In this document: one piece after another, positions 2,981 to 32,099 of the stretch
Position numbering within the stretch: the first letter of the stretch is position 1
Layout of the letters: every line of letters begins with the position of its first letter
Assembly: GCA_028703835.1 (NCBI GenBank)
Contig: JAQVMB010000017.1
Coordinates: forward strand, 1 to 32,099
Origin: Candidatus Peribacteraceae bacterium
GTDB taxonomy: Bacteria > Patescibacteriota > Gracilibacteria > Peribacterales > Peribacteraceae
DNA: 32,099 nucleotides
Direction of reading: 5' to 3'
Notes under the pieces: generated by a model
Database searches by the model: none
Seen by the model: the letters and a program-made list of their open reading frames with translations, nothing else
What the model was told of the DNA's origin: nothing
Translations under genes and position numbers: made by a program

Positions 2981-5900
2981 TCAATCAGTCTGCCCGGTAT
3001 TATTGCCGCCGGCGTAGGCCGCGATGGCATCCTCCACTTTCTTCTCCAGGATGGGGGACATGGTGATGGTGAGGGGGAGGGGGATCAACTGTTCCCCGAT
3101 CTTCAGCTGCACTTTTTCCTTGCCCGGGAACGTCTGGAAAATCTTCTTCAGTTCCAGGAGGAGTTGGCGGGGCGCCTTGGGGGGGAGGGCGACGGTGTGG
3201 ACGTGGATCCTTGTGGAGGATTCAGAGGAAGCCCCTCCTTCGCCAAGGCTTCGGAGGGCAGGCGACGAAACCGAAGAATCCGAGGAGTGGTGTTTTTTTC
3301 CATTCAATCCTTTTTTTTGTGCATCATCGGTTTCTTTGGATTCCTTGGTTTCTTCGGTTTCCTTCCCCCCGATCCATTCCAACTTTCGCAGCGGCTCGTC
3401 CATGCTCATCCCTCCCATGATCCACTTCCCGAGCGGACCGAAGAAGTCGTCCGCAAGCTCCTCTTTTTTCCCCAACGACACCTGCTCGCCCGCGATGACG
3501 TTGCCTTCCTCGTCCACCATCTCGACCGTCTCGTTCCCGTCGTCGGCGGGGCGGCGCACCAGGATGCCCTGCTTGGCCTCTTCCTCGTCGAAGAATCCTT
3601 CCTCCTTCGCGCGCCTGATCATGGTCGAAAGGGAAGCCTTCTTGATGGCGTCGGCGCGCATCTGGAGCTGCCCTCCGCGCATGTCCACGGTTCCTCCGAT
3701 CACCAGGACGGTGTCGGGGAGCCCCAGGATCTGCGCGGCGTCGGTGTACGTGCGGGGGAAGAGCGTCACTTCCATCTTTCCCGTCGGATCTTCCAGCGTG
3801 AGGATCGCCATGGTCTCGCCTTTCTTCGTCATGATTTTCTTCAGGCCTTCCTCGATGCCGGCGATCGTGATTTTTTTCCCCGCCTCCTTCGGCGTGAGCG
3901 TGGCGATGAGCTGCGCCTTCTTCCCGATGTACTTCCGCAGACCCGCGAGCGGATGGCTGGAGACGTACATGCCGAGCGCCTCTTTTTCCCACGCCAGTTT
4001 CTCCTGGTTGGTCGCCTTGGGCGTGTCCGGGAACTCGATGGTCGCCGTCTCCATGCCCGCCGCGGTGCCGCCGAAGAGGTCGCCCTGCATTCCGGTCGCA
4101 TCGCCCGCGTCCTTGCTGTAGGCCGTCACCAGCTCGTAGTGGTCGATGAGCGCGCGGCGGTCGGCCAGGGAGTCCAGCGCCCCGCCTTTCGCCAGCGCCT
4201 CGAGGGACTTCTTGTTCAGGATCTTGCCGGGGATGCGGCGTGCGAAATCCTCGATGGACGCGAAGGGGCCGCCCTGCGTCCGCACGTCGATGATCTGCTG
4301 CACGGAACTTTCGCCGATCCCCTTGATGGCCGTGAGCCCGAAACGGATGTCGCCTTTCGGCGCGATGCCCCGCGCCATCTTTTTTCCCTGCGGCGGGATG
4401 GCGGTGAAGTGGCGCAGCGACTGGTTGATGTCCGGCGGCAGCACGGCGATGCCCATGGCGCGGCACTCATCGATCTCGATCATGACGCGGTCCGTTTTCT
4501 GCGCGTCGGAGGAGAGGAGCGCGGCCATGAACTCCGTCGGGAAATGCGCCTTGAGATACGCTGTCTGGTAGGCGATGAGGGCGTAGCCGGCGGCGTGGGA
4601 TTTGTTGAAGCCGTAGCCGGCGAAGGGCGTGATGACATCGTCGAAGATCTGCTCCGCCTGCTTCTTCTTGTAGCCTTTCTTCACCGCGCCGTCGATGAAC
4701 TTGTCGCGCTGCGCATCCAGCTCCTTCTTGATCTTCTTGCCGATGGCGCGACGGAGGAGGTCGGCTTCGCCGAGCGAGAATCCCCCGAACGTCCGGGCGA
4801 TCTGGAGCACCTGTTCCTGGTACACGCCGATGCCGTAGGTCGGTTCCAGGATGGGCTTGAGGTCGTCGTGCTGGTACGCCACTGCCTCCTGGCCGTGCTT
4901 GCGCTTGATGAACTGGGGGATCCAGTCCATGGGACCCGGACGGTAGAGCGAGACCATGGCCGTGATGTCGCCGAACTCCGTCGGCTTGAGCTGCTTCAGG
5001 TACCGCCGCATGCCCGCGGACTCCAGCTGGAACACGCCCGTCGTGTCGCCGCGCTGGAGGAGCTCGTATGTGGGGCCGTCGTCCAGCGGCAGTTCCTCGA
5101 CCTTCAGCTTGATGCCGTAGAGGCGGTCGATGATTTCCAGCGTCGTCTGGATGACGGTGAGGTTCGTCAGGCCCAGGAAGTCCATTTTCAGCAGGCCGAG
5201 CGCTTCCAGCGGCTTCGCGCCGTACTGCGTGATGACCGTATCCTCGTCCTTCGGCGCGCGCTGGAGGGGGGTGTAGGTGACGGCGGGCTTCTGCGTGATG
5301 ATGACGCCGCAGGCATGGACGGAGACGTGGCGCGCCTTGCCTTCCAGCCGCAGGGCGATATCAATGATCTTGCGGTACGTCTCGTTGCTGTCGCCGGCCA
5401 TCTTCATCTCCGTCGTTTCCATGGCGTCCTTCAGTTTCGTGCCCGGGCGGTCCGGGATGAGTTTGGCGAGGTTGTTCATTTCCAGAAAGGGCACGCCGTA
5501 CGCGCGGCCCACGTCCTTCACCGCGGCGCGGGCGGCCAGCGTCCCGAACGTGCAGATCTGCACCACCTTGTCGCGGCCGTACTTCTCCCGCACGTACTCC
5601 AGCACTTCGTCGCGGCGCGTGTCCGCGAAGTCCAAGTCGATATCGGGCATGGAGATGCGTTCGGGGTTGAGGAAGCGCTCGAAGAGGAGCCCGTGTTGCA
5701 TGGGGTCGATGCCGGTGATGCCCAGGCAGAAACTCACCATGGAGCCGGCGGCGGAGCCGCGCCCGGGGCCCACGGTGATGGCGCGCCGCTTCGCCTCGTT
5801 CACGAAGTCCGCCACGATGAGGAAGTAGCCGGAGAATCCCACCTGCTTGATCACGGAGAGTTCATAGTTCAAGCGTTGTTGCAGCTCCTCCGTCGGTTCC

Positions 5901-6841
5901 GGGTAGAGGCGGGCGAACCCTTCCTGCGCCAGGCGCGTGATCTCCTCTTCCTCCGTCTTGCCTTCCGGGAGCGGGAAGCGGGGGATCTGGTATTTCCCGA
6001 ACGCGAAGGAAAGATTGCACCGGTCCGCGATGACGCGGGTGTTCTCCAGCGCTTCCGGCACGTGCGCGAATGCCTTCTCCATCTCTTCGAAAGGCCGCAT
6101 GGAGTAATCCGAATCGCGCATGGAGAAACGGCCGGGGTCGGAGATGTGGGCGTTTTTCTGGATGCAGAGCAGGACGTCATGCGCCTCCGCGTCTTCCGGA
6201 CGGCAGTAGTGGCTGTAGCACGTCGCCACGAGCGGCACGCCCAGTTCCTTCCCCCACCGGATGAGCTGCTGGTTCGCTTCCGGCTGGCCGGGGACGTTCG
6301 GCAGGTCGATGAGCTCGAAGTACAGGTTGTCCTCCCCGAACCAGCCGCGGTATTCCTCGACCAATGCCTTCACCCGCGCTTCGTCTTCCGCCAAGGCCGC
6401 CTGGGGCAGGGCGCCGCCGAGGGGGCCCGAGAGTGCGATGAGGCCCTTGCCGTATTTGGCCAACAGCTCCGCATCCACCCGCGGCTTGTAGTACATGCCT
6501 TCCAGGGCGGCCAGCGTGGCCAGTTCCAGCAGGTTCTCGTAGCCTTCCTGCGTCTCGGCGATGAGCGTGAGGGGCCAGCGTTTCGTATCCGTGCCGCTCT
6601 CCTTGTCCTTGCGCGTCCGGGCGGCGACGTAGACGTCCATGCCGAGGATTGGCTTCAATCCTTTCTTCTGCGCTTCCTGGTAGAACTCGATGAGGCCGTA
6701 GCCGTAACCCTTGTCGGCCATGCCTACGGCTGTCTGCCCCAATTCCTTCGCGCGCGCGACGATCTCCGCAGGCGATGGCAGCGCCTCGAGGAGGGAGAAG
6801 GTGGAATGACAGTGCAGGTGGACGAAATCAGCCGGTTTCAT
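2981..6841 (-). CDS. dnaE: DNA polymerase III subunit alpha (replicative polymerase)
   Basis: The catalytic subunit of the replicative polymerase, 1286 residues (E. coli 1160). Order of parts: a PHP domain from residue 6 (VHLHCHSTFS), the polymerase core with GPGRGSAAGS near 359, a catalytic Asp pair in PDIDLDF (D400, D402) and a third Asp in KMDFLGL (D554), then a helix-hairpin-helix region (GIGESSVQQI) and an OB fold (ITIAGIEEGLKK). In the PHP domain the first metal motif is intact, but the usual TDHG is ADKG (residues 42-45) and the usual ND.HY is CYSHY, so proofreading by this domain is doubtful. Residues about 1158-1209 are a low-complexity insertion (KETEETKESKETDD ... HHSSDSSVSS) encoded by palindromic repeats. 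I use the ATG at 6841, next to the PHP motif; a GTG at 6862 is in frame but lies within the -10 region. Confidence 0.97.
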   Translation of the reverse strand: MKPADFVHLHCHSTFSLLEALPSPAEIVARAKELGQTAVGMADKGYGYGLIEFYQEAQKKGLKPILGMDVYVAARTRKDKESGTDTKRWPLTLIAETQEGYENLLELATLAALEGMYYKPRVDAELLAKYGKGLIALSGPLGGALPQAALAEDEARVKALVEEYRGWFGEDNLYFELIDLPNVPGQPEANQQLIRWGKELGVPLVATCYSHYCRPEDAEAHDVLLCIQKNAHISDPGRFSMRDSDYSMRPFEEMEKAFAHVPEALENTRVIADRCNLSFAFGKYQIPRFPLPEGKTEEEEITRLAQEGFARLYPEPTEELQQRLNYELSVIKQVGFSGYFLIVADFVNEAKRRAITVGPGRGSAAGSMVSFCLGITGIDPMQHGLLFERFLNPERISMPDIDLDFADTRRDEVLEYVREKYGRDKVVQICTFGTLAARAAVKDVGRAYGVPFLEMNNLAKLIPDRPGTKLKDAMETTEMKMAGDSNETYRKIIDIALRLEGKARHVSVHACGVIITQKPAVTYTPLQRAPKDEDTVITQYGAKPLEALGLLKMDFLGLTNLTVIQTTLEIIDRLYGIKLKVEELPLDDGPTYELLQRGDTTGVFQLESAGMRRYLKQLKPTEFGDITAMVSLYRPGPMDWIPQFIKRKHGQEAVAYQHDDLKPILEPTYGIGVYQEQVLQIARTFGGFSLGEADLLRRAIGKKIKKELDAQRDKFIDGAVKKGYKKKQAEQIFDDVITPFAGYGFNKSHAAGYALIAYQTAYLKAHFPTEFMAALLSSDAQKTDRVMIEIDECRAMGIAVLPPDINQSLRHFTAIPPQGKKMARGIAPKGDIRFGLTAIKGIGESSVQQIIDVRTQGGPFASIEDFARRIPGKILNKKSLEALAKGGALDSLADRRALIDHYELVTAYSKDAGDATGMQGDLFGGTAAGMETATIEFPDTPKATNQEKLAWEKEALGMYVSSHPLAGLRKYIGKKAQLIATLTPKEAGKKITIAGIEEGLKKIMTKKGETMAILTLEDPTGKMEVTLFPRTYTDAAQILGLPDTVLVIGGTVDMRGGQLQMRADAIKKASLSTMIRRAKEEGFFDEEEAKQGILVRRPADDGNETVEMVDEEGNVIAGEQVSLGKKEELADDFFGPLGKWIMGGMSMDEPLRKLEWIGGKETEETKESKETDDAQKKGLNGKKHHSSDSSVSSPALRSLGEGGASSESSTRIHVHTVALPPKAPRQLLLELKKIFQTFPGKEKVQLKIGEQLIPLPLTITMSPILEKKVEDAIAAYAGGNNTGQTD
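3233..3264. repeat. 32-bp palindromic repeat, copy 1 (inside dnaE)
   Basis: This segment matches 20467-20498 at 29 of 32 positions. It begins CCCTCCTTCG and has CGGAGGG on the other arm, so it can form a short hairpin. Here it is part of the dnaE reading frame and encodes the region around ALRSLGEGG. It directly abuts the 9-mer-based inverted repeat at 3265. Confidence 0.85.
3265..3362. repeat. 9-mer-based inverted-repeat element, copy A (in frame inside dnaE)
   Basis: Left arm (3265-3290) is made of GAAACCGAA and GAATCCGAG units and ends GAGGAGTGG. The middle is T-rich. The right arm (3326-3362) is the reverse complement theme, TCGGTTTCTT, GGATTCCTT, GGTTTCTTC. On the dnaE strand the arms encode ETEETKESKETDD and HHSSDSSVSS. 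Copy B at 6865-6973 shares both arm sequences, the GAGGAGTGG junction and the GTGC before the right arm. Confidence 0.85.
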
Positions 6842-6973: not shown

Positions 6974-8338
6974 TCACAATTCTTCCACTTCCGCCTCTTT
7001 CTTGCACTCTTTGATCAGGTCTTCGATTTTCTTCTCCCAATCTTCCTGGGACATGTCCTCCTCGCGGTCGCCGTCCCCTTTCGTGAAGGGGAAGCAGGCG
7101 TCCGCGCCGGCGATTTTGATGATCCTTTCCAGCGAAGCGTTGCAGTCCCGGTTCATGCAGGAACGTCGCAGGAAGTACGCAAGGTCCCGTACGTAGGCGC
7201 GCAAGGACCGTTCCTCCCCGTCTTCTTCCATGGTGCTCACCAGGCGGGAAAGTTTCCCGATCGTTTCGGAAAGGGGGGCGAAGGCTTCTTCGATTGCTTC
7301 CGCTTCCACCGTGCCCGCCTTGATGCCCGCGTCCTGCATCGTCTGCCCCCCGCTGAAGACTCTCGTTTGCTCGGCGAGGAGGGGGTGCAGCGCGGTGGAG
7401 CCGGTGATCCAGGTGGTGAAATTCAGCGGCAGGAAAGGGGAAGGGCGGAGGAGTTCGATGTTCCACAGGAGTTCCGTGAGCCATCGGTACCGTCGCGAGG
7501 GCATGCGGGTGAATGCGCCTCCGGACCAGACATGGAAGTCCCCGGGCCACGTTTCCACGCATCCCTCCACCTGGTCCCCGTTTTCGTCCTCGTCCTCGTC
7601 CCGCGCATCGTCCAGCTTTTCCAGCAGCGCCTCCAGCGCCTCTTTCTCCTTCCGCAGGGCAGCCGTTTCCTCGTCGAACGGGAAACTTTCGGCGTTTCCC
7701 CGTCCCGCTTCGAGCGCCCTCAGCGCTTCGTCGATGATGTCGGGCGTACAGCCGTACTTTCCATTGAGGCTCATGTCGAAGTACTTGGTGCTGAAGGGGC
7801 ACATCTTCTCCTTCTTGATGGTGCCGCTCGCGGAAGCCGGGTCGAAGAGCTGCATGTTCGACCAGCCCGTGTCCACATTTCCCGGTTTCGTGCCGCCCCA
7901 GGTGAGAACGCGCAAACGTTCTCCCAAGAACGTGTAGAGTTTCGTGAGTCGGAGGATCGCTTGGCCGTTCTCGCTGTCGTTGGCTTCCCGGAGCTTGGCG
8001 CGGACGGCGTCCATTTCCGCGAGCAGGAGCAGGGTGTCCGCCCGCAGGCACGGCGACATGTGGGCCAGCTGGACGCTCGCGTCCGCCCGCAGGAGGTCCG
8101 ATGAGCGTACCGCGAAGATTCCCGACACGCTGTTCTGGATCCACGTCCAAGCGTCCATGGTTTGCCAGGCGCCTCCCCCTCCCCCTTCTCCCCCGGTTTC
8201 TTCCTGCGCGGCGCGGCTGCGTTCCAGCACGCGCTTCGTGTACGCCGAAATGCCCGGCAAGCTCCCCTCTTCCGCGGATGCGGACGGGGCGGACAGGAGG
8301 AGCGCGATGAGGAGGAAACGGAGGGCGGGCATGGTCAT
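6974..8338 (-). CDS. Exported protein of unknown function, fifth gene of the secreted cassette
   Basis: A 454-residue protein that I do not recognise. The N-terminus MTMPALRFLLIALLLSAPSA followed by SAEEG is a clear signal peptide with an AxA-type cleavage site. After it come a Gly-rich stretch (GGEGGGGG), a mostly helical region, an acidic coiled-coil-like segment (about 240-260, ALRKEKEALEALLEKLDD then DEDEDENG), scattered Cys residues (including RRSCMNRDCN) and a charged C-terminus (KKIEDLIKECKKEAEVEEL). The start ATG overlaps the stop of the preceding gene (ATGA), so it is translationally coupled. Its stop is directly followed by repeat element copy B. The product is predicted to be outside the cytoplasmic membrane, soluble or attached through partners. 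Confidence 0.85.
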   Translation of the reverse strand: MTMPALRFLLIALLLSAPSASAEEGSLPGISAYTKRVLERSRAAQEETGGEGGGGGAWQTMDAWTWIQNSVSGIFAVRSSDLLRADASVQLAHMSPCLRADTLLLLAEMDAVRAKLREANDSENGQAILRLTKLYTFLGERLRVLTWGGTKPGNVDTGWSNMQLFDPASASGTIKKEKMCPFSTKYFDMSLNGKYGCTPDIIDEALRALEAGRGNAESFPFDEETAALRKEKEALEALLEKLDDARDEDEDENGDQVEGCVETWPGDFHVWSGGAFTRMPSRRYRWLTELLWNIELLRPSPFLPLNFTTWITGSTALHPLLAEQTRVFSGGQTMQDAGIKAGTVEAEAIEEAFAPLSETIGKLSRLVSTMEEDGEERSLRAYVRDLAYFLRRSCMNRDCNASLERIIKIAGADACFPFTKGDGDREEDMSQEDWEKKIEDLIKECKKEAEVEEL

Positions 8339-10248
8339 TCGCAGACGTCGGGGGCATCTTCGGGATTGAGCGGGCAGAGCGTATCGGGGAATTCCCCTTT
8401 CGCCCACCGCTCCAGGACGGTGACGGTCGCCTCGATTTTTCCGTTGAGCGTTTCACTGAGGCGGCGGAGATACTGCCGCCACAGGTCCGTTCCGGACGTC
8501 AGTCCCGCCGCTTCCAGCGCGAGCAGTTGCTCGGAGGGGACGCGCGTGTCGAGTTCCTGCGCGAAGAGGAAACCGATGGTGCTCTGGACGACCTGCAGGA
8601 AATTGAGGGAGCGTTCGACGGGTGCCCGGCAGAGGACGGGGGGGGAGAGCGGGGGCTTGCCGGCCATGGCGCAGTATTCGATGGCCAATTCCCGCGCCCG
8701 GGCGGCCGGATTGTACGGGGGGAGCCGTGGCAACGAGATCTCGGAGGGAAACGTGAGGGGTTTCTCGTCATCCTCGGGGGGGCGGAGGCACTGGAGCCAC
8801 GGGGACGTGGTTTCCTGCGCGACGAGCGGATCCCACCCAGGGACGATGCTGTGCCCGTACGTCCGCTGGCCGCATTCCCGTATGTAGCAGGCATGCCCGA
8901 GAATGGTGTAGGGGTAGGCTGTTTCGCTCCCCGGTTCGCAGGGGTCCGCAGCGGATTCCCCCCCTTGTTTCTGTTGCTCTTTGGCGGCGTCTTCGCGCAA
9001 TGTCTCACACAGTTTCGACGCGTCGAGAACGTCCGCATTCTCCGTCTCCTCCTCTTCCGTTTCGGGGGTGCAGGGGGAGAGGATGATGGTGTCCGCTTTT
9101 GGTTCCGGCTTCTCTTCCTTACAGGAGCCGTCGGAGGAAGACGCATCGGGTGGACGGCACAGGAACCCGCTGTTCCCTCCGAGGGAGTAGCAGAGGCCTC
9201 CCCCTCCTTTCTGCAGGATATTCTTTTTCTCCGTTCGTTCCGGCAGGGGGGGGTAGAGACCCCCCAGGATCGGTTCGTCCCCCCCTTCCTTCGGCACCAA
9301 AGAGGGCAGCACCGGTTCCAGCGCCATCGTCCAGCGGATGCCCGCGTCTTTCGCGGGCAACTTCTTCGCCTTGTTTTCTTCATCCTGCCGGTTGCCGTCC
9401 CCCTCCTCGCCTTCGGTGTTCCGGACGTATGTCCAGATCACCGTTTTGTCATCCGGGGTGACCAGAGAAAGGCCGATCTCATTTTTTCCCAGCGGGGGGT
9501 CGATGGATGCCGCCAGTTTGGCGGGGAGTTCCAGGAGCGCGCTCTCCACGTCTTCCGCCCTGTCGAAGAGGTACTGGCGTTCCGTGCCCGGTCCGCTCTG
9601 TTCGTCGGGGTTTTCCTTGTCGCTCTTTTCACGGACGAATGTCACGCCGTAGGCGTACCGCCAGACGGCTGCGGTCTTCTCTTCTTCCTTCAGCTGATTC
9701 AGCGCGGAATGCACTTTGTCCGCCGCGGTTTTCAAGCCCTCGGACGGGACGATGATGCGGACGGTGCGCAGGCCGCCCGAGCTCGTGAAGGGCAGGCCCC
9801 ATGTCTCCAGGATTTCCGCGTAGTGCGCCACGAGCTTCGTCGGCTGCTGGCTGAATTGAACGATGGGTTCCTCGTAACTCGTCGCGATCGCCTGCAGGCG
9901 GTGTCCCAAGGCGACCACGCGCATTTCCTGCTCCGCCGCCTGCCGCACGACTCCTTTCACGATCAGGCAGACGGCGCGCGATTGTTTCAGGCTCGAACAT
10001 CGTTGCTCGGTCATGCCGTTTTTCAGGATGTCTTCCACGTCGCTTTCGGAGATATCCATGTCCTTGAAGTACGGGGGAAGGGACGTATTTGACTTGATGG
10101 CTTTGGCGACGAAGGATTTCACGTCATCCGTCACCGCGGACTCCGCTTCCACCAGTTCCCGCACCGACGGAAGGAGCGGGAAGGATGCCGCCGCCCGGGA
10201 AACGGGGAGGAGGACGAGGAGGCCGATGAGGGCGAAGCGTTTCGTCAT
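8335..10248 (-). CDS. Exported protein of unknown function, fourth gene of the secreted cassette
   Basis: A 637-residue protein without a recognised domain. It starts MTKRFALIGLLVLLPVSRAA, a signal peptide. Residues about 25-190 look alpha-helical and include MTEQRCSSLKQSRAVCLIVK. A strand-rich stretch follows, then a Gly-rich turn (LQKGGGGLCYSLGG) and a Cys-containing acidic linker rich in Glu and Pro (TPETEEEETENADVL). The helical C-terminus (about 520-620) is followed by a tail with two Cys residues ending DAPDVCE. The ATG is 2 nt after the previous stop and its own stop overlaps the next start. I searched by eye for catalytic motifs and saw none, so a structural or adhesive role is possible but unproven. 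Confidence 0.85.
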   Translation of the reverse strand: MTKRFALIGLLVLLPVSRAAASFPLLPSVRELVEAESAVTDDVKSFVAKAIKSNTSLPPYFKDMDISESDVEDILKNGMTEQRCSSLKQSRAVCLIVKGVVRQAAEQEMRVVALGHRLQAIATSYEEPIVQFSQQPTKLVAHYAEILETWGLPFTSSGGLRTVRIIVPSEGLKTAADKVHSALNQLKEEEKTAAVWRYAYGVTFVREKSDKENPDEQSGPGTERQYLFDRAEDVESALLELPAKLAASIDPPLGKNEIGLSLVTPDDKTVIWTYVRNTEGEEGDGNRQDEENKAKKLPAKDAGIRWTMALEPVLPSLVPKEGGDEPILGGLYPPLPERTEKKNILQKGGGGLCYSLGGNSGFLCRPPDASSSDGSCKEEKPEPKADTIILSPCTPETEEEETENADVLDASKLCETLREDAAKEQQKQGGESAADPCEPGSETAYPYTILGHACYIRECGQRTYGHSIVPGWDPLVAQETTSPWLQCLRPPEDDEKPLTFPSEISLPRLPPYNPAARARELAIEYCAMAGKPPLSPPVLCRAPVERSLNFLQVVQSTIGFLFAQELDTRVPSEQLLALEAAGLTSGTDLWRQYLRRLSETLNGKIEATVTVLERWAKGEFPDTLCPLNPEDAPDVCE

Positions 10249-10250
10249 TG

Positions 10251-11030
10251 TTATTCGAGCGTGCGGAGGAGGCCGCGCGCGTCCCAGGTGCGCACGGGGA
10301 TGCAGCTGCCGGCTTCGGCGGCGAGGCCCGTGAGGTTGCGCAGGTCTTTCGACGCGCGGTTGAGGCAGGTGAAGATCTGGTCGAGGGGCCGGAGCTTGTT
10401 GACCCCCAGCGCGAGGACGAGCGACCGGCGGATGCTTTCCCGCGCGGAGGCGAGACGCAGGTTTTTTTCCTTGAGCCATCGCTGGGCATTTTTTGCGGTC
10501 TCGAAATAGGACAGATATTCTCCGGTCGTCTCGTCTTCCTTGCCCAGCATCATCTGATAGACGGCATGCGCACGGTATTCAAGGGCGCAGCCGTATGCTT
10601 CCAGATAATCCAGCAGCACTTGCGGCATGTCCGATTCGAAGAGATCGTCCGTCCGTTTCTCCCACTGTGGCAACCGGGAGGCGAGCTGTCGCAACGGGCC
10701 GCTCGCCGTACGCCGTGCGTTGTTTTCGCAGGAAATATCGTCCGTCTCCTGGTCCGCCTGCAGGATTGCCGCAACCTGCCCGTCGAATGCCTGATCCCAC
10801 TGTATCCCCTCCGCATCGTCGGGGTCGGTGGGGAAGAGATCCTCGTTCTGCGTGCAGGCGACGATGCCCGGGATCGTCGAGGATGAAGGTGCGGCTTCTT
10901 CGCCCTCCGTTTGGCCTTGCAGGGCGGCGGCGCAGGAGGACAAGAGCATCAGGCTCGCGCACAGCCCCATCCCGAGCGGGACGGAGAAACAGGATTGCCG
11001 GAGGGGGCGGTCACGGTTGCGCAGGGGCAC
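10251..11030 (-). CDS. Predicted lipoprotein of unknown function, third gene of the secreted cassette
   Basis: A 259-residue protein. A GTG at 11030 gives an Arg-rich start (MPLRNRDRPLRQ), a hydrophobic stretch and the lipobox LLSSC at about residues 29-33, so it is probably a lipoprotein processed by LspA (an lspA gene lies elsewhere in this window). This start overlaps the previous gene by 20 bp; no later start in frame would leave a proper signal sequence. The mature part is helical with four further Cys at wide spacing. Its C-terminal half contains RPLDQIFTCLNRASKDL, which parallels TPLDQASQFLGRFSRL in the gene before it, suggesting a shared fold. Function unknown. Confidence 0.8.
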   Translation of the reverse strand: MPLRNRDRPLRQSCFSVPLGMGLCASLMLLSSCAAALQGQTEGEEAAPSSSTIPGIVACTQNEDLFPTDPDDAEGIQWDQAFDGQVAAILQADQETDDISCENNARRTASGPLRQLASRLPQWEKRTDDLFESDMPQVLLDYLEAYGCALEYRAHAVYQMMLGKEDETTGEYLSYFETAKNAQRWLKEKNLRLASARESIRRSLVLALGVNKLRPLDQIFTCLNRASKDLRNLTGLAAEAGSCIPVRTWDARGLLRTLE

Positions 11031-11886
11031 AGTACGGAAGGAAGCAGGGCAGCCGGCTGAACCGGCCGAGGAATTGTGAAGCCTGGTCGAGAGGGGTCAG
11101 GAAGGAGAAGTCCAGCATGCGCAGGATGGGTTCGAAGTTCCCGCCGAATTGCCGGAGCGAGCGGTGTGCGGCATCTTCGTGCGCCAGGTAGCCCAGCAGG
11201 CTCTCCTCGTACCGGATGAGTTCTTCCGCCACGGGAGCGCAGTAGCTGCGCATCGCTACCGTGTCGACAAAGGTCCAGACGGGCGTGGGGCGGCAGAGGG
11301 GGAGCGGTGCGGGGTCCATCGGACGGCATCCGATTGCCTGGAGGGAAGACTGCGAAGCGCTGTCCCCGTCTTTTTTCGGCGATCCCGTCGCTTTGTCAGC
11401 CGCTTCGCAGACCGTGAGGGCGCGGCACTGGAAGGCACGGAAACTTTGCAGGAGGGGCGGGATGATGTCCGACGTGAGGGCGCGTTGGGTCTGCAGGATG
11501 CCCGTTCTGCCTTCGGAAGGGTCGATGCCCGTATCGGGTGCTAGGGGATCCGGCGCCGTTTCTTCATCCATTTCACCATTGGATTTGGTGATGTCGCCAT
11601 CCGGGCCGCCGCTCGTCGCCCAGGAATTGGATTCCGTTTTTATCCAGATGTTGCCTTTCCAGTCCACACGTGAGGCTCCCGTCCGTTCCTCACGGGCGGG
11701 ACGGATGCCGAAGAGCGCGGATTCGAAGAGGAAGCGTTCCTTGTTGAGCGCCCGGTTGATCTCCGTCGCGCAGGGGGTGCGGACGTCGAAACTTTGCTGC
11801 GGGGCGGTTTCTTGCGCGCGTGCCGGACCGTCTGCGGAGAGGAGCAGCAGCAGGACGGCCGGCAGGAGGGAAGCGACGTTGGTCAT
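11011..11886 (-). CDS. Exported Cys-containing protein of unknown function, second gene of the secreted cassette
   Basis: A 291-residue protein that I do not recognise. MTNVASLLPAVLLLLLSADG then PARAQE is a signal peptide with a likely cut after ARA. The mature protein has an acidic Asp/Pro/Gly linker near residues 95-125 and several Cys (FQCRALTVCEAA, IGCRP, LCRP, SYCAP, and LPCFLPYCAP at the end). It also has a helical module near the C-terminus with TPLDQASQFLGRFSRL. The Cys spacing suggests disulfides formed after export. The start ATG overlaps the stop of the first gene by 4 bp (ATGA). The frame is open further upstream, but that part lies inside the first gene and lacks a signal peptide. 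Confidence 0.83.
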   Translation of the reverse strand: MTNVASLLPAVLLLLLSADGPARAQETAPQQSFDVRTPCATEINRALNKERFLFESALFGIRPAREERTGASRVDWKGNIWIKTESNSWATSGGPDGDITKSNGEMDEETAPDPLAPDTGIDPSEGRTGILQTQRALTSDIIPPLLQSFRAFQCRALTVCEAADKATGSPKKDGDSASQSSLQAIGCRPMDPAPLPLCRPTPVWTFVDTVAMRSYCAPVAEELIRYEESLLGYLAHEDAAHRSLRQFGGNFEPILRMLDFSFLTPLDQASQFLGRFSRLPCFLPYCAPAQP

Positions 11887-14669
11887 TGTTGGGGGGCGGG
11901 GGTGGGGGGAGAGGAAGGGAAATCCAAGGGAATGTTTTCCGGCAGGGAGAACGATTCGTAGAGGTCTCCCGGTGACGCCACGTCGTAGGGTGTCGGGTTG
12001 GCGGAGGGGACCAGTTTTCCTTCCTTGTCGATGGTCTTCTCCCGCAACGTGTTGCGGGCATTTTCGAAGGGGGCGGAGGCAGAATCTCCCGGCGGAAGCG
12101 TCACGCGCAATCCTTCTTTGATCACCTCCATTTCCAGGCGACAGAGATCGTCGTCTTCGTCGCATTCCGGCAGGGGGGGCGGGGGGGAGGCGACGCCTGT
12201 CGGCGGTTCGCCCGGGTCCAGGAATGCGCCCAGCGGCGCCCAGATCCGCATGAAGGCGTGCCACAGCTTCGGTTCCGGAAAGACGCAGCCGTCTTCCCCG
12301 AACGTCGGGCAGTTCAGGTCTTTGTGCGGCTCCTTCACCCACAGGAGTTTTTCGTAGCGGTCGCGCAGGTTCTCCAGTGCGCCCGTCCGTTCCGCGAAGG
12401 CGGCGGTGAGGGCATCGATGGGAACCCCTCCTTCCGCCGCAGGCGCGTTGCCGTATCGCTTCTCGACGGCCAAGGGCGGGAGTTCCGGTTCCGGCAGGGA
12501 CGGGATGCCGGGGAGATCGGGGAGTTCCGTATTTTTCGCCTCGAGGTACGAGGAGGGCGGGGAGGGCAGGCGCAACGATACCTGCACGGGGCGGAGGACG
12601 GGAATCCGCAGGGAGGCGGCCTGTTCCAGGCCTGTGAAGAAGATGTCACTGAAATCGAAGATGAAGTGCTTGGGGTACGGAGTGAGGTCCGGCAGCTGGG
12701 AGAAATCGAAGGCGTCGTCCTGCTCGATCCATTCGAGCGGCGGCGTGGAAACGTCGTTCTTGCAGTGGAGGCTGTTCGTCGTTTCCACTCCCCCGTAGGC
12801 GTTCTTCAGCGCTTTCCATGCTTCCAGCAGCGCGCGTTCCCGTTCGCGCCGGTCCATCGCTTCCCGGTACGGTTGCATGCGCGACTCGATCCACTCGTCG
12901 ATCGCGTCCGACAATTCTTTCCGGCGTTCGAGGACTTTTGCGAGATGGCGCGGCAGTTCCGTCCGGAGCGTCCGGAGCTTGGCCAGGTACGCGCGGTATT
13001 CCTGCAGCTTCTGCGTCACGTCGTCGGCGGCCGATCCGTCCTTCCCCAGGAGTTCCCGCTGCTTTTTCCACGCTTCCCACGCTTCGATGAGCGTCTGGAG
13101 TTCGGCGTCCGACACGAGCGGGATGACGACGGGGATGGGGTCTTCCTCCAGGCGCGAGAGCAGGGAGGTGCGGAACATTTCCCGGACGGCCTCGACGAGG
13201 CCGGGTTTCATCGGGGTGGAGAGTTCGATGAGGGGGACGGAGGGCGATTGCCCGGCCGGGCGTGTTTCCGTGAAGAGCGCCTCCAGTTCGTCCGTGGCGC
13301 TGACGAGCGGCATCACGAGTTCCACGGTGGGCGGGAACCCCTCCATATACCGTTCCAGTTCGAGCATTTGGCTCACGTATTTTTCGGTTTCGCCGAACGG
13401 GGGTCGGTCTTCCGGTTCCGGGAGTTCGGGTCCCGCGAAGCCGCTCTTCTTCTTTTTCTCGATGTCCAGGGCGAAGCCGCCCCGATTCTCCAGCTCGGGC
13501 AAATTATCTTCTTTGTTGAACGTCGGGGAACCGTTGACCTTCCTCTTTTCCTTGAGGCGCTTGAGCTGGAGGTCGTCCGCGATGCAGTTGAGATCGTCAG
13601 AGTTATTCCGGGGATCCATGCCTTGTTCCTTGTACCACTTGTAGCAGGCCAGCTGGACCTCGTACTCCTCGTCATGTTCCGTATCCGGGATGTTGCCCAG
13701 CACATGGGTGGCAACGTAGCGCCGGTAGAAGGATTCATACCGCGAGCCGTTCAGAGGATCGAAAGGAGGATCGGAATCAGGCGTTGGTATCTCGGCTGCC
13801 GTCCGGCAAAATTTCCCGTCCGGCTGGTCTTCATTGGGGGGGCCGCAATCTTCGCAGTTGGGATACTCCTTCTCCTCATCCTTCCAATATTCGTGGCACC
13901 AGTCCTGTGCGTCCTCCATGGCCGGCTCATCGCCGTCCCATACCCATCCATACCCCACCTTCAGGCGACCTTCCTGTTGCTCGTCCCAATCGCCCGTGCA
14001 TTCGTATTTCTCGCCGAAGTATTCCCACACTTCGACATGTTCCGGGCATTCGGGGGAGCTGTCCGGGCAGGAGTTACAGTCGAAAGAGAGGTCGGGGCGC
14101 TGGTCCGTGTCGAAATCCGTCATGTCGCAGTAGTACTCTTCCCAGCAGTATCCGGTATCGTCGCAGACCCAGTAGTAGATCGCCGTCCAGAAGGTGCAGT
14201 GCGTGAGGCGATCGACGGGGTAGCGCATTTCCTCATTCACGGCTTCGCAAACGGAGAGGCAATCATCGGGATTGCGGCATTCAGTATCGTGATACTGCGG
14301 CGGATCGACATTGCGGAATTCCTCGCAATGAGGATTGTCCATATAGGAGGCGAAGACTTTGCCGTACGTCTCGTCGGGATACTCCTCGTCGTTCGTCTGT
14401 CCGCGCCAATCGCCCGGGGCGAGGGGTACGCCTGAGACCGTGGTCATGCCTTCCCCTTCTTCCATGTCCTTGCGGAAACCGCACGTTGCTTTGTTCAATT
14501 CTTCCGGGATGTCATCTTCCACGGTGGTCTCGACCGTTTCATAGTCGCTGTCCTCCGGGATTTGGTAGACGCTTGCTTGGGCGTGTGACGCCGCAGACAG
14601 GATCCCGGCCAAACCCATGAGGACGCTGGCACGCAAGACCCGGCGGATGGGATGGATGGGAATAACCAC
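11883..14669 (-). CDS. Large Cys-rich exported protein of unknown function, first gene of the secreted cassette
   Basis: A 928-residue protein with no domain I can name. A GTG at 14669 gives MVIPIHPIRRVLRAS, then a hydrophobic core and HAQA, a signal peptide. The first 370 residues are acidic, aromatic-rich and hold 19 of the 24 Cys (for example WVCDDTGYCWEEYYCDM and FDCNSCPDSSPECPEH). A predicted helical coiled-coil region follows at about 530-630 (KLQEYRAYLAKLRTLRTEL, then ERRKELSDAIDEW). Next is a Pro-rich stretch (LPDLPGIPSLPEPELPPL) and a C-terminal part with two more Cys pairs. The number of Cys is even, as expected for disulfides. It leads the five-gene operon. A possible -10 TACTAG lies at 14688-14693. 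Candidate roles are a surface fibre, adhesin or envelope-complex scaffold; none is shown. Confidence 0.85.
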   Translation of the reverse strand: MVIPIHPIRRVLRASVLMGLAGILSAASHAQASVYQIPEDSDYETVETTVEDDIPEELNKATCGFRKDMEEGEGMTTVSGVPLAPGDWRGQTNDEEYPDETYGKVFASYMDNPHCEEFRNVDPPQYHDTECRNPDDCLSVCEAVNEEMRYPVDRLTHCTFWTAIYYWVCDDTGYCWEEYYCDMTDFDTDQRPDLSFDCNSCPDSSPECPEHVEVWEYFGEKYECTGDWDEQQEGRLKVGYGWVWDGDEPAMEDAQDWCHEYWKDEEKEYPNCEDCGPPNEDQPDGKFCRTAAEIPTPDSDPPFDPLNGSRYESFYRRYVATHVLGNIPDTEHDEEYEVQLACYKWYKEQGMDPRNNSDDLNCIADDLQLKRLKEKRKVNGSPTFNKEDNLPELENRGGFALDIEKKKKSGFAGPELPEPEDRPPFGETEKYVSQMLELERYMEGFPPTVELVMPLVSATDELEALFTETRPAGQSPSVPLIELSTPMKPGLVEAVREMFRTSLLSRLEEDPIPVVIPLVSDAELQTLIEAWEAWKKQRELLGKDGSAADDVTQKLQEYRAYLAKLRTLRTELPRHLAKVLERRKELSDAIDEWIESRMQPYREAMDRRERERALLEAWKALKNAYGGVETTNSLHCKNDVSTPPLEWIEQDDAFDFSQLPDLTPYPKHFIFDFSDIFFTGLEQAASLRIPVLRPVQVSLRLPSPPSSYLEAKNTELPDLPGIPSLPEPELPPLAVEKRYGNAPAAEGGVPIDALTAAFAERTGALENLRDRYEKLLWVKEPHKDLNCPTFGEDGCVFPEPKLWHAFMRIWAPLGAFLDPGEPPTGVASPPPPLPECDEDDDLCRLEMEVIKEGLRVTLPPGDSASAPFENARNTLREKTIDKEGKLVPSANPTPYDVASPGDLYESFSLPENIPLDFPSSPPTPAPQQ

Positions 14670-14767
14670 GCGAACGTGGAATCCATCCTAGTACCGACTT
14701 CGTCGCTTCCCTATACCGCGGAGACGGAGAAGCATTGACGGAAATGGACGCTGCCGCCCGATTGCAT

Positions 14768-14796
14768 TTGATTGTGTACTTCACCATACTTATTTT
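14768..14796 (+). promoter_or_regulatory. Putative sigma70-type promoter for ssb
   Basis: TTGATT (14768-14773), a 17-nt spacer, and TATTTT (14791-14796). It would give ssb a leader of about 175 nt, unusual in this window where most genes have almost no leader. The 308-bp gap between the divergent cassette and ssb holds this promoter, a dyad and a hairpin. Confidence 0.5.
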
Positions 14797-14835
14797 CGAA
14801 AGCCCACGGAATACATTTGCATTTCTGTTCGTCAG

Positions 14836-14851
14836 GTGTACAACTGTACAC
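14836..14851. promoter_or_regulatory. Dyad in the ssb leader, possible operator
   Basis: GTGTAC-AACT-GTACAC, a perfect 6-bp inverted repeat with a 4-nt centre, about 40 nt downstream of the putative -10 box. The size and symmetry suit a dimeric DNA-binding protein. No regulator is identified. Confidence 0.35.
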
Positions 14852-14869
14852 GCTTCGTTCTTTTTCCTC

Positions 14870-14914
14870 CGCCTCACGGCAAGCTGCGGGATGAAGACCC
14901 GCTCTCGTGAGGCG
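14870..14914 (+). promoter_or_regulatory. Two-stem hairpin in the ssb leader
   Basis: Outer stem CGCCTCACG (14870-14878) pairs perfectly with CGTGAGGCG (14906-14914). Inside it GCGGG (14886-14890) pairs with CCCGC (14898-14902). No U-tract follows, so it is not a terminator. It could be a structured leader or a protein-binding site controlling ssb. Confidence 0.45.
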
Positions 14915-14977
14915 AAGCAGAGGAAGCATCGCCACCCATCGGTCGTGGCCTCCCGTACTTCCATTCCCCCCAGAGAC

Positions 14978-15853
14978 ATGTTCTCCTTCAACAGGGTGCA
15001 CATCATCGGCTACCAGACACAACCCGTCACGATCCGGCAGACGCCGGGCGGTTCGAGCGTGACCGACCTCAACCTTGTCGTTCCCTACGCGTTCCGCACG
15101 GAGAACGGGGAAACGCTGGAAGGGAAAGGGTTCCATACCGTCACGCTGTGGGGACCCATGGCGGACGTGGCCGGCCGTTACATGAAGCCCGGCAGCCAGG
15201 TGTTCATCTCCGGGCGTTTGCAGACGGATTCATGGGAAAACGAGCAGACGGGCGAGAAGCGGTCCAAGACCAAGATCGTCGGGCTCGACATGATCCTCCT
15301 CGATCCCAAGGATGGACTGCGTGCGGCGCCGGAGGGCGCGGCAGGCATGCTGGGAGGTTTGAACCGTGCGGACATCATCGGGAACGTGACGAAGGATCCC
15401 GAGATGCGCACGACGACGGGCGGCCAGCAGGTGCTGACGCTCGGCGTCGCCACGAACGACCGATGGAAGGACCGCGCGTCCGGCGAGGACAAGGAACGGT
15501 CGGAATTCCACAACGTGGTCATCTGGGGCGCGCTCGCCGAGCGCGTGGCCAAAACGCTGCACAAGGGCAACCGCGTCTTCGTGTGCGGCCGCGTGCAGAC
15601 GCGCAGTTGGGAGACGAAGGAAGGCGCGAAGCGCTACACCACAGAGGTGATCGCCGACCAGGTATCGCTCCTCGGGACGCACCATCCGCTTGCGGAGGCT
15701 TCCATCCAAGCGGGTGCCGCCATGGATGCGCGCGGCACGGGTCCCGCCATGTCGTCGGCCGCGACCGACCGCGTTCCGGCTCCGGCGCAGGATATCGAGG
15801 CGCCGGAAGTGGCGTATGCGTCGGAAATCAAGGTGGAGGATCTGCCGTTTTGA
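14978..15853 (+). CDS. ssb: Single-stranded DNA-binding protein with two OB folds
   Basis: This protein coats single-stranded DNA in replication, repair and recombination. The 291-residue product contains two SSB-type OB folds in tandem. The first is at residues 1-110 (MFSFNRVHIIGYQTQ ... GRLQTDSWENEQTGEKRSK). The second is at about 125-230 (GGLNRADIIGNVTKDPEMR ... GRVQTRSWETKEGAKRYTT), which is the more canonical copy. A flexible tail follows and ends VEDLPF, the acidic tip that recruits partner proteins. Ordinary bacterial SSBs have one OB fold per chain and act as tetramers; two per chain acting as dimers is known from Deinococcus-Thermus. The ATG at 14978 opens directly on the first fold. 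The frame is open further upstream, but that part has no SSB similarity and overlaps the leader structures. Confidence 0.95.
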   Translation: MFSFNRVHIIGYQTQPVTIRQTPGGSSVTDLNLVVPYAFRTENGETLEGKGFHTVTLWGPMADVAGRYMKPGSQVFISGRLQTDSWENEQTGEKRSKTKIVGLDMILLDPKDGLRAAPEGAAGMLGGLNRADIIGNVTKDPEMRTTTGGQQVLTLGVATNDRWKDRASGEDKERSEFHNVVIWGALAERVAKTLHKGNRVFVCGRVQTRSWETKEGAKRYTTEVIADQVSLLGTHHPLAEASIQAGAAMDARGTGPAMSSAATDRVPAPAQDIEAPEVAYASEIKVEDLPF

Positions 15854-20526: not shown

Positions 20527-21933
20527 TCAATCGCGCTCCTGCCCGCTTCCGTTCTCCTGCGGACGGAGGTCGAACGTGTAGAGGACCACATCCTGCTTCT
20601 CTCCCTCGACGAAGCGTGTGCGAGACCGTTCGAGCATGGGCGCAAATTCCCCCGTCTCATCCGGTTTGCCGTATTTCCCGTACAGCGCCTTCACCGCCGG
20701 AGATGCGGTGATGCTGACTGCCCGCGTGAATCCGGCTTCCCGCATGGTATCCAGGCACTCCTCGAAGATCTGCCGCCCATGCTGCGTGTTCTGGTGTTTT
20801 TCCGCGATGGCGAAGCCGCCGATAAGGCCGGTGCCGGGATACTCCAGCGTCGGTTGGAAATATATGGTTCCGATGGGGATATCCCTGTGCCGGAAGACGA
20901 GGCTGGAGGGAATATGTTTTTTCAGTTCCGCTTCATTCATATGCTTGAGGAACGGCGTACCACTTTTCGTCTGATGTTGCGGTCCCGAGCACTCCTGCCG
21001 GATTTTCATCAAGGCCGGAAGATCGGTGTCATGGGCGGGGGCGATGTGGTGCGTCTGGATCCGTTCGATGACCGTTCCGTCGCCGAGGTGGGTGAGCGCT
21101 TCGTTCTCAAGCGCTTTCCCGTCGGCTTCCAGGATGTGGACGGCGTTCACCCCTCCGGCGACGGCGAGCGCCGTCGCGGTGAGCTTCGGGAGCATTCCTT
21201 CATTGATCACGAACGTGCCGTCCCGGTCTTTTTTCCGGAGCAATTCGATGATTCCGTCGAAATCGACGTAACTCAGGACACGCTTCAGTCCCTGCCCGTT
21301 CGGGATCAGGATGCCTTTCTCATTCGTCATGTAGAAGAGTTTCTCCGCTTCCAGCGCCGCCGCGACCATGGCCGCGGACGTATCGGCGTTCACGTTCAGG
21401 TAGCTGCCGTTCTCGTCCCTGCCCCCGAAGGGAATGATGGCCAGAACGTTCTGCTTGATCGCTTTCCGGATCACCTCCGTGTTCATTGCCACCACCCTGC
21501 CTGTTTCCCCATGACCGGGGATTCTTTCGGCCTGGATGATCCCGGGATCAAGCGGCTGGCAAGGAATGCCGAGTTCCCGGCATCGTTCCACGATGTGGTT
21601 TTGGATATCCAGACATGCTGCCACGATGTGCGGGATCATCTGCTTCGGTGTGATGCGCAGCTGCGTTTTCGGGTGTTTGGATGTTTCGCCCAAGATTGTG
21701 TTGAGCTGTTTTCCCCCGCCATGCACGAGGACGCATTGCACGCCATGCTGCATGAAAATTCCCGTGGTGGAGAGGATGCCGTCCAATCGGGGTCGGTCAT
21801 CCAGCGGCGTTCCCGACACTTTTTCCACGAAGATTTTTCCCTCGAAGTCGCGGTAGAAGCCTGCTGCCGTTTCCGGATTGATGGCGGGAAGGACGGCTTG
21901 TTCAGACGGCGGTTCGGAGGAGGAGGAATTCAT
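20527..21933 (-). CDS. argA: N-acetylglutamate synthase-like protein (amino acid kinase fold plus GNAT)
   Basis: A 468-residue fusion of an amino-acid-kinase-fold domain and an acetyltransferase domain, the layout of ArgA, which makes N-acetylglutamate from acetyl-CoA and glutamate for arginine synthesis. Kinase-fold marks are QCVLVHGGGKQLN near 70, NVNADTSAAMVAAALEAEKL and LFYMTNEKGILIPNGQGL. The GNAT part (about 320-450) has LIGGFAIAEKHQNTQHGRQI, where the acetyl-CoA loop reads QNTQHGR, like the divergent RSSSRGE of E. coli ArgA. The N-terminal 30 residues are Ser/Glu/Pro-rich and probably disordered. I use the ATG at 21933; a GTG at 21954 is also in frame but lies 2 nt after a terminator T-run. 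A structured leader precedes it. No other arginine gene is in the window, so the pathway role is inferred. Confidence 0.8.
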   Translation of the reverse strand: MNSSSSEPPSEQAVLPAINPETAAGFYRDFEGKIFVEKVSGTPLDDRPRLDGILSTTGIFMQHGVQCVLVHGGGKQLNTILGETSKHPKTQLRITPKQMIPHIVAACLDIQNHIVERCRELGIPCQPLDPGIIQAERIPGHGETGRVVAMNTEVIRKAIKQNVLAIIPFGGRDENGSYLNVNADTSAAMVAAALEAEKLFYMTNEKGILIPNGQGLKRVLSYVDFDGIIELLRKKDRDGTFVINEGMLPKLTATALAVAGGVNAVHILEADGKALENEALTHLGDGTVIERIQTHHIAPAHDTDLPALMKIRQECSGPQHQTKSGTPFLKHMNEAELKKHIPSSLVFRHRDIPIGTIYFQPTLEYPGTGLIGGFAIAEKHQNTQHGRQIFEECLDTMREAGFTRAVSITASPAVKALYGKYGKPDETGEFAPMLERSRTRFVEGEKQDVVLYTFDLRPQENGSGQERD

Positions 21934-29843: not shown

Positions 29844-30701
29844 ATGCGTGCAGTATGGACGGGTACGCTCACGTTCGGCCTCCTTGCCATTCCCGTGAAG
29901 CTCCATCCCGCTTCGCAGGAGAGGGGAGGTTTGCGTTTCCGGTATTTGCACAAGAAGGATTTGGCGCCGGTGGAGAACGTGCGCATTTGCCGTGAGGACG
30001 GGCGCGAAGTGTCGTTTGGGGAGGTGGTGCGCGGTTATCGTTCGGGGAAGGGAAAGTATGTCGTCGTCAGCGACGAGGATTTTCGGCGCGCAAATGTCCG
30101 GCGGACGCGTTCCATCGAACTGACGGATTTCGTGGAGGCGGGAGAGATCGACCCGCAGTACTTCGAAAAGCCGTATTTCCTGGAGCCGGAGGAAGGCGCG
30201 GAGCAGGCGTACGTCGTGTTGCGGGAAGCGCTGCGGCGTTCGGGGAAGACGGGCATCGCCCGGTTCGTCCTGCGTGGGAAAGAGCACATTGCGGCGCTCC
30301 GGGCGGAAGGATCCGTCCTCGTTTTGTTGCAGATGCGGTTTGCGTCGGAGTTGCGGGGATCGGAGGACGTGCGCATCCCCGAGAGGAAAGTGGCAGAGGG
30401 GGAGGTGGCCATGGCGGTGGCGCTCATCGAGGCGCTCAGCGGCCCCTTCGATCCTTCCGCTTTCCGCGATACGTACACCGAGGAGCTGAAGCGCATCATC
30501 GAGGACAAGGCGACGGGCGCCGGACCGGCTCGCAGCGGGAGGAAAACCGCCCCCCGCCCGAACGTGCACGATCTCGTACGGCTCCTGCGGGAGAGTCTGG
30601 CAGAGGCATCCCGCCGCTCCCCCGGCATGCTCCGGCGAACGGGCCGCAAGGAGGCTTCCGGGCGCGCACAACCGAAGCGGCGCTCAATCCACCAGCCGTG
30701 A
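29844..30701 (+). CDS. ku: Ku protein, non-homologous end joining
   Basis: Bacterial Ku forms a homodimeric ring on DNA double-strand ends and recruits LigD. The 285-residue chain opens MRAVWTGTLTFGLLAIPVKL, a near-invariant start in the family. It continues with RFRYLHKKDLAPVEN, GYRSGKGKYVVVSDEDF, SIELTDFVEAGEIDPQYFEK, YFLEPEEGAEQAYVVLREAL and DTYTEELKRIIEDKATG. A basic low-complexity tail of about 55 residues follows (GRKTAPRP ... RRSIHQP), like the Lys/Arg-rich C-terminal extensions that help DNA binding in other bacterial Ku proteins. No ligD is within the window on either side. The ATG at 29844 has TATCCT 8 nt upstream. Confidence 0.96.
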   Translation: MRAVWTGTLTFGLLAIPVKLHPASQERGGLRFRYLHKKDLAPVENVRICREDGREVSFGEVVRGYRSGKGKYVVVSDEDFRRANVRRTRSIELTDFVEAGEIDPQYFEKPYFLEPEEGAEQAYVVLREALRRSGKTGIARFVLRGKEHIAALRAEGSVLVLLQMRFASELRGSEDVRIPERKVAEGEVAMAVALIEALSGPFDPSAFRDTYTEELKRIIEDKATGAGPARSGRKTAPRPNVHDLVRLLRESLAEASRRSPGMLRRTGRKEASGRAQPKRRSIHQP

Positions 30702-30765: not shown

Positions 30766-32099
30766 ATGCGATCTTCGTTTGCATTAGCGTTTGTGGCGGC
30801 TCTCCTGCCCCTCTCGGTGCTTGCCCTCGACTACCGGGACACCAGCAGCCGGTACAAGGACGCTCCTTTCAAGACGCCGGAAGCGGCGGCCATCAGCGTG
30901 CTGTCCAACGCGGGGATCATGGAGGGGAATCCGGACGGGACATTCGCGACTGCGCGGTCCATCAACCGTGCGGAATTTTTGAAGATCGGCCTTCTGAGCC
31001 AGCCTGCGATCGCCGTGTCCGCTTCGGATGCAGCCGCGTGTTTTCCGGACGTGCGTTCCGGAGATTGGTTCAGCCGCTACGTGTGCCTCGGTAAAAACCG
31101 GGGCGTGGTGGAGGGATATGCCGACGGCTCCTTCCGGCCGGGCCAGACGGTGACCTACGCGGAAGGGCTGAAGATGCTCGCGGAACTCTATGAGGGTGAC
31201 GGAGACGATTCTCCCTGGAAGCGGCGCTGCCTGCGCGTCAATTCCGCCGGCATATGCGAGCTCCATGAAGACATCGTCGCGCCGGCAGGTGCGCCGTGGT
31301 ACCAAGTGTACGTCGACTGGGCGGGCGCGCAGGGGCTGCTTCTGCCTCTCAGTATTGATTTCAATGAACCTCTCGCGCGCGGGCAGGCGGCCCGTCTCGT
31401 CGCCGCGTTCCGCGCCGACGCGGAGGGGGAGCTGGCTTCGTACCGGCAATTTGAACAAGGCCGGGTGCCATCGTCCCGTTCCAGCATGGGCGCCGACACG
31501 TCGTCCCGACCCACCTCTTCTTCGTCGTCTTCATCCTTGCAGGCGTCTTCTTCGTCGGTGAGTTCCGTGAGCAGCAGCGTTTCTTCCGTCTCTTCCTCCG
31601 TTTCCTCCCTGCCCGATCTCCCCGTCAGCAGCCATTTCCTCCTTCTCGGTGCGCGCAGCAAGCCCGTGGCGAGCGCGGTGTTCCTCTCGCCGCTGGAGGG
31701 GGCGTACATCCGGCGCATCGAAGTGCGCTTCGACCGCAAAGTCCGTTCTCTCAGCCGCGTGTACATCGTCGATGCAGCCGGGACGCCCGTCCTGACCCTC
31801 TCGCCCGACGTGACGGATTCCACGGATCGCAATTGGAAGGCCACGTCGACCGCGACGGGAGCGACGTATCTTGCGAAGAATGCCGAGCGGGTCCTGGCGG
31901 CGGAGGTCCTGCTCCTCGCGCCGGAAGAGGGGGGTATCGTTGGAGAAACGGTGGAGATCGACCAATTCACGATCGATGTGGAGGGGGAGTGGAGCGGCTG
32001 CCGCTATACGTCGGCCGCCCAGACGTTCACGTTCCCCATGCACCAGACCGCACAGGCAGTGGTTACCGCAGTGCAGAATGCACTGCCGACCCAAGGGCT
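30766..32099 (+). CDS. SLH-domain surface protein, C-terminus beyond window
   Basis: The 444 codons in the window begin MRSSFALAFVAALLPLSVLA, a signal peptide. Two clear S-layer homology repeats follow: one from about residue 30 (SVLSNAGIMEGNPDGTF then INRAEFLKIGL), one from about 87 (CFPDVRSGDWFSRYVCLGKN then EGYADGSFRPGQTVTYAEGL). A third, degenerate one is near 185 (WYQVYVDWAGAQGLLLP). A Ser-rich linker (about 235-285, SSSVSSVSSSVSSVSSSVSS) leads to a probable beta-rich domain (PVASAVFLSPLEGAYIRRIE and onward). SLH domains bind cell-wall polymers, so this protein is likely anchored non-covalently on the cell surface. No stop is reached before the window ends. The role of the distal domain is unknown. 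Confidence 0.9.
   Translation, partial: MRSSFALAFVAALLPLSVLALDYRDTSSRYKDAPFKTPEAAAISVLSNAGIMEGNPDGTFATARSINRAEFLKIGLLSQPAIAVSASDAAACFPDVRSGDWFSRYVCLGKNRGVVEGYADGSFRPGQTVTYAEGLKMLAELYEGDGDDSPWKRRCLRVNSAGICELHEDIVAPAGAPWYQVYVDWAGAQGLLLPLSIDFNEPLARGQAARLVAAFRADAEGELASYRQFEQGRVPSSRSSMGADTSSRPTSSSSSSSLQASSSSVSSVSSSVSSVSSSVSSLPDLPVSSHFLLLGARSKPVASAVFLSPLEGAYIRRIEVRFDRKVRSLSRVYIVDAAGTPVLTLSPDVTDSTDRNWKATSTATGATYLAKNAERVLAAEVLLLAPEEGGIVGETVEIDQFTIDVEGEWSGCRYTSAAQTFTFPMHQTAQAVVTAVQNALPTQG

Follow-up and report, generated by a model that had tools for sequence, protein, structure and literature searches.

We analyzed a 32,099-nucleotide stretch of DNA (the window) from a Candidatus Peribacteraceae bacterium whose genome measures 1.34 Mb and is 98.5% complete. 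The window contains a cassette of five adjacent minus-strand genes (Table 1), whose products we refer to as P1 to P5 in the window and as F1 to F5 at the level of families. The coordinates and lengths reported in the first-pass annotation were exact, and its account of the junctions (two ATGA overlaps, a 20-bp overlap, and a 2-nucleotide gap) agreed with the distances we obtained for F1/F2, F2/F3, F3/F4, and F4/F5 (−4, −20, +2, and −4 nucleotides). The same annotation had concluded that the five proteins should be made in a fixed ratio, which was not established, with tight overlaps varying between relatives. No sigma-70-type consensus was found in the presumed promoter region between the cassette and the divergent ssb gene. 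The ssb product matches PF00436 over two stretches and may thus be an SSB with two OB folds in tandem. Elsewhere in the window, we observed a Ku-type protein (29844-30701, +), which is unusual for a reduced genome and may point to end-joining, and a fusion of an amino acid kinase with a GNAT acetyltransferase (20527-21933, −) that resembles acetylglutamate kinase/synthase fusions.

Table 1. Cassette genes and flanking features in the window
Feature	Positions	Strand	Basis	Details
F1/P1, lead exported protein	11883..14669	-	ORF, GTG start	928 aa, 24 Cys
F2/P2, exported protein	11011..11886	-	ORF, ATG start	291 aa, 8 Cys
F3/P3, lipobox-like LSSC, helical, conserved Cys	10251..11030	-	ORF, GTG start	259 aa
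F4/P4, exported, short form without peptidase-like module	8335..10248	-	ORF, ATG start	637 aa
F5/P5, exported protein	6974..8338	-	ORF, ATG start	454 aa, 8 Cys
Divergent intergenic region, cassette to ssb, presumed promoter region	14670..14977		position	
ssb, divergent flanking gene, not a complex member	14978..15853	+	conserved neighbor in Peribacteraceae	
dnaE, downstream flanking gene, not a complex member	2981..6841	-	conserved neighbor	

As previously annotated, each of the five proteins begins with an N-terminal export signal, which was signal-peptide-like in P1, P2, P4, and P5 and lipobox-like in P3; beyond this signal, no further strongly hydrophobic or transmembrane stretch was found in P1 to P5. 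Cysteine content was 1.8 to 3.1% in the five proteins, compared to 0 to 1.8% in the other genes of the window. A recount agreed that 19 of the P1 cysteines fall within residues 1 to 370. P1 is laid out as a Cys-rich N-terminal region (residues 60 to 370) and a conserved core (approximately residues 430 to 730), and the F2 family alignment contains invariant Cys. The genome encodes four DsbA-like proteins. VKOR was considered as a dedicated disulfide partner and rejected, because the window genome lacks it and few family members carry it. Pfam, NCBIfam, and PDB searches (whole-protein searches and profile searches of PDB sequences) gave no significant match for P1 to P5, in keeping with the earlier statement that no domain could be recognized. 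The AF2 models of P4-long and P1 were poor (mean pLDDT, 55 and 46), and Foldseek returned no fold match with these models, which are too poor to use; a helical stretch at approximately residues 521 to 632 was the best-predicted part of the generally poor P1 model.

The named records bearing the cassette belong to Candidatus Peribacteria, Peribacteraceae, or Peregrinibacteria, a group that GTDB places in the CPR class Gracilibacteria. P1 was present in 47 of 57 family genomes and F4 in 63 of 74 (36 of 40 genera), and the cassette was missing from a few Peribacteraceae, such as the small-genome genus g6 and genome G008. We called genes in about 65 fetched loci, with gene starts in the relatives set by a simple home-made gene caller, and obtained 48 complete loci (the window and 47 others), all ordered F1-F2-F3-F4-F5; most of the remaining loci were cut by contig ends or had one small gene uncalled. 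Nearly all F1 to F5 members carried an export signal without any other strong transmembrane stretch. Where the gene upstream of a complete cassette was visible, it was a divergent ssb in 43 of 44 cases, and dnaE lay no more than four genes downstream on the same strand in 40 of 47 complete cassettes. For all five families, dN/dS ranged from 0.05 to 0.23 in the pairs where it was computable, indicating purifying selection. Because the order recurs across the family at such dN/dS values, the cassette is more than a chance arrangement. The first-pass annotation had let its reading depend on two points, and on both it stood: no known secretion or pilus system was matched, and the gene order is conserved in relatives.

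Pairwise distances among F1 to F5, which are non-independent in this test, showed rank correlations of 0.79 to 0.89; the partial rank correlations given dnaE were 0.67 to 0.81, and those with ssb were close to 0. Correlated distances are the expectation for subunits of one complex, and a rate shared by surface proteins can also produce them. The five families fell into one clustering component, but their mutual homology was ruled out by hhalign; the apparent homology came at least partly from a shared peptidase module, described below. A scan of the genome contigs with P1 as the sole query gave no match. Given the constant location within the family, five unrelated exported genes might be held together only by their position between ssb and dnaE. 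We consider this highly improbable, as the five co-evolve far more with one another than with ssb or dnaE and the same order occurs in other families in different neighborhoods.

Those other families came to light through F3. An F5 search had indicated that the operon was restricted to Peribacteraceae, a conclusion that was withdrawn after a bridging F3 profile gave matches outside the family. Profiles first reached two further families via F3, and the bridging profile then matched 63 of 192 class genomes in more than 10 families, with neighborhoods containing a giant F1, F2, F3, F4, and F5 in order. At least nine other families have the F1 core embedded in a surface protein of 2,800 to 4,240 aa that carries FG-GAP and mostly SLH domains and is followed by F2-F3-F4-F5. 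We detected the core in 12 of 15 class lead proteins (E values, 7e-17 to 2e-6), while reversed-sequence controls gave E values of 0.1 or worse. FG-GAP was found in nearly all class giants, and an SLH-like segment was found in 12 class proteins at the F1 position, near the C terminus in most giants. For instance, genome G446 has five consecutive genes with 4-nucleotide overlaps across F1/F2/F3, and its lead protein of 3,948 aa contains SLH (2e-25), FG-GAP, TSP3, and the F1 core (E, ∼1e-13). Genome G442 has the arrangement F2-F3-510 aa-F5. In family f164, three genomes read with TGA as a sense codon encode proteins of 4,089 to 4,175 aa that contain the F1 core, and no cassette was found beside these giants in the three genomes. 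The window also encodes an exported SLH protein (30793-32097, +, open at the window end), the SLH part of which is similar to the one in the G446 giant (E, 2.6e-13).

Position-matched profiles of the class and Peribacteraceae sets aligned along the diagonal with probabilities of 95% for F2, 97% for F3, 78% for F5, and 51% for F4. Profile searches and comparisons thus show F1, F2, and F3 to be homologous to the class set and F5 to be so more weakly; a homology of F4 outside the family is faintly suggested, mainly by its position and a weak profile match. Class-only profiles matched the window proteins marginally (P1, E of 0.006; P5, E of 0.008); thus, the link between the window and the giants is transitive, by way of other Peribacteraceae. 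In the window, neither an SLH nor a sortase signal was found in F1 to F5, and Pfam detected no FG-GAP repeats in P1. We also considered that the giant had been split into separate genes in Peribacteraceae and rejected this, as the matches were scattered and of the repeat type (FG-GAP/DUF11), with the region immediately preceding the core giving none.

Because the same five genes occur in the same order across the class, usually with a giant wall-anchored lead protein, their products very probably form a cell-surface structure that has not been described before, and the surface location of the complex is strongly supported. The surface or envelope complex suggested in the first-pass annotation thus gained from the conserved order, the co-evolution, and the FG-GAP/SLH giants elsewhere, whereas the role of fiber, adhesin, or attachment device that it named was not established. 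A structural S-layer or cell wall complex, with F1 and its partners in a paracrystalline or fibrous coat and no specific role in host contact, would be consistent with the SLH domains of most class giants, with the near-universal presence of the cassette in the family, and with the separate SLH protein in the window. We nevertheless hold it to be somewhat unlikely, since insertions of a peptidase module and an F4 size range of 539 to 2,587 aa better suit an interaction role and some genomes do without the cassette.

Most F4 proteins were approximately 800 to 950 aa long and included an insert of about 180 aa that is rich in Cys and has the pattern HELxHAxQxC...CCxxE. We found this peptidase-like module in 46 proteins and its motifs were kept in most, with a recognizable HExxHxxQ-type motif missing from 8 of the 46 copies. 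Pfam matches of the module were weak and mostly to HExxH metallopeptidase families, including Peptidase_M76 (PF09768), matched by 13 of 45 members at 2.8e-5 or worse, and DUF6782 (PF20573), matched by 9 of 45. What the module has in common with the HExxH zinc metallopeptidases of these two families is HELxHAxQ and a downstream Glu (CCxxE); the similarity is weak, and the disulfide framework is different. AF2 pLDDT values were mostly 70 to 85 over the module in the F4 protein of locus L063, for which a fold search gave no significant match, and no solved relative of the module was found. Judging from its motifs, the module may have zinc-peptidase activity.

The module was placed in F1 rather than F4 in four loci, and these F1-located copies clustered separately in the tree of the module. 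Further, genome G005, which has no cassette, encodes a standalone exported module protein (L097:9250-12459, +) with Cys-rich DUF4215 repeats, 66 Cys, and a C-terminal transmembrane segment. The largest protein at the F4 position (2,587 aa; genome G040, L101:7505-15268, −) contains numerous Cys-rich repeats of the DUF4215 type and has a C terminus like that of F4. Two same-genus pairs (L050 versus L052 and L045 versus L091) differed by clean presence or absence of the module after a CGGW motif. In the family alignment, the window F4 likewise showed a clean gap where relatives carry the module, and the module, defined by HExxH and the downstream Glu, was absent from P1 to P5 and from the window genome. 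The window's genus was nested in the module-bearing part of a dnaE+ssb tree; being inside a module-bearing clade with no copy of its own, it most likely lost the module.

The presence of the HExxH module in so many proteins, its movement between F4 and F1, and its occurrence in a standalone surface protein would fit a protease complex secreted to scavenge nutrients, with F4 (or F1) as the enzyme and the other proteins as chaperones, inhibitors, or substrate-binding subunits. However, the operon is kept under selection in module-less lineages, the window's genus included, and HExxH was absent from the class-wide F4 set, so the peptidase is better regarded as an add-on than as the core, and a scavenging complex seems improbable. 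We also rate as improbable that the five proteins are secretion or pilus accessories forming the outer portion of a T4P/T2SS- or T4SS-like machine whose genes lie at another site. In genus g3, a T4SS_pilin domain with two transmembrane segments is fused to the C terminus of F5 (L029:5538-7598, −, 8.8e-9; also L098), a prepilin-like gene directly follows F5 in about nine loci from several genera (L034:3807-4256, −, PF07963; L030, L041, L046, L077, L078, L085, L088, and L099), and several T4SS_pilin proteins are encoded in the genome, but the genes for the latter lie elsewhere and are unlinked to the cassette. Moreover, neither an ATPase nor a polytopic membrane protein nor a pilin is found among F1 to F5, and Pfam, NCBIfam, and PDB yielded no similarity to any known component. 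No VirB4-type ATPase or membrane channel component was found among the cassette genes or the identified window neighbors, and no prepilin peptidase motif was seen in the listed N termini of F1 to F5. A viral origin was considered as well and rejected, as there was no viral contig.

We regard it as likely that the cassette represents an ancient operon encoding a cell-surface complex, one that is anchored through SLH in most lineages and has been pared down to its core in Peribacteraceae. From the sequence data, we infer a physical complex, disulfide bonding, anchoring, and host contact. Five Sec-exported, disulfide-rich proteins would be co-produced. F1 would act as the scaffold, its conserved core of beta strands and a long helical stretch docking the partners, and F2 to F5 would be four dedicated helical, Cys-rich partners. 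In most class families, the F1 core sits inside a protein of about 4,000 aa that has FG-GAP repeats (integrin-type propeller) and SLH domains, the latter serving as the predicted cell wall anchor. In Peribacteraceae, F1 would have been shortened to 900 to 1,570 aa, and anchoring may have shifted to N-terminal lipid or membrane anchors, such as the F3 lipobox in the window. The zinc-peptidase-like module would have been inserted into F4 or F1 in Peribacteraceae and later shed by the window's genus, leaving a noncatalytic core. The most likely role is surface display, adhesion, and contact with a host or neighbor; the cell is presumably epibiotic, and relatives that retain the module may add local proteolysis. 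A bolder version, which we put forward tentatively and consider unlikely, is a new kind of class-wide host-contact apparatus in which an SLH-anchored FG-GAP giant and four dedicated disulfide-bonded partners form a spike or fiber that recognizes and holds the host; Peribacteraceae would have shortened it and equipped it with an exchangeable zinc peptidase for opening the host envelope, and the apparatus would have been disarmed again in some lineages, the window's among them.

The operon is relevant to the question of how uncultured CPR members of the class attach to their hosts and feed on them. It is a candidate surface machine, with lead proteins ranging from a reduced 900 aa to 4,000 aa; Pfam, NCBIfam, and PDB contain none of its families, and the open-access literature that we searched gave no earlier description of it. 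Direct tests are made possible by natural variation, since the peptidase module is present in some cassettes and missing from others, sometimes within a single genus.

Several known systems share features with the cassette. The likeness to the Patescibacterial T4SS with VirB2-like pilins (PMC12102498) consists of the fusion of F5 to a T4SS_pilin domain in a single genus, whereas no VirB4 or other T4SS component was identified in or beside the cassette. Most class F1 giants are similar to SLH-anchored S-layer and surface proteins (PF00395) in their SLH-like segment near the C terminus; in contrast, no SLH was present in the Peribacteraceae F1 to F5 proteins examined, and F2 to F5 have no known counterpart. 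Large Cys-rich extracellular proteins with a proposed role in attachment have been reported for Ca. Peribacter riflensis (PMC4736985), and these, like the cassette products, are exported Cys-rich proteins of Peribacteria. That set averages 1,655 aa and includes a 14-gene cluster with 7.2% Cys, whereas the window cassette has five genes of lower Cys content and is not described in the passages of that paper that we consulted. Giant proteins of 1,392 to 4,163 aa from Vampirococcus lugosii (Absconditabacteria), located at the membrane or surface and bearing integrin/DUF11-type domains, have been proposed to function in host recognition and attachment (PMC8080830). The passages of that study that we consulted describe no five-gene operon or partner proteins, and the window F1 corresponds only to the core, without FG-GAP or SLH; nevertheless, the F1-core giants of the class, with their FG-GAP repeats, are of the same kind as the V. 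lugosii giants and come from the same broad CPR group.
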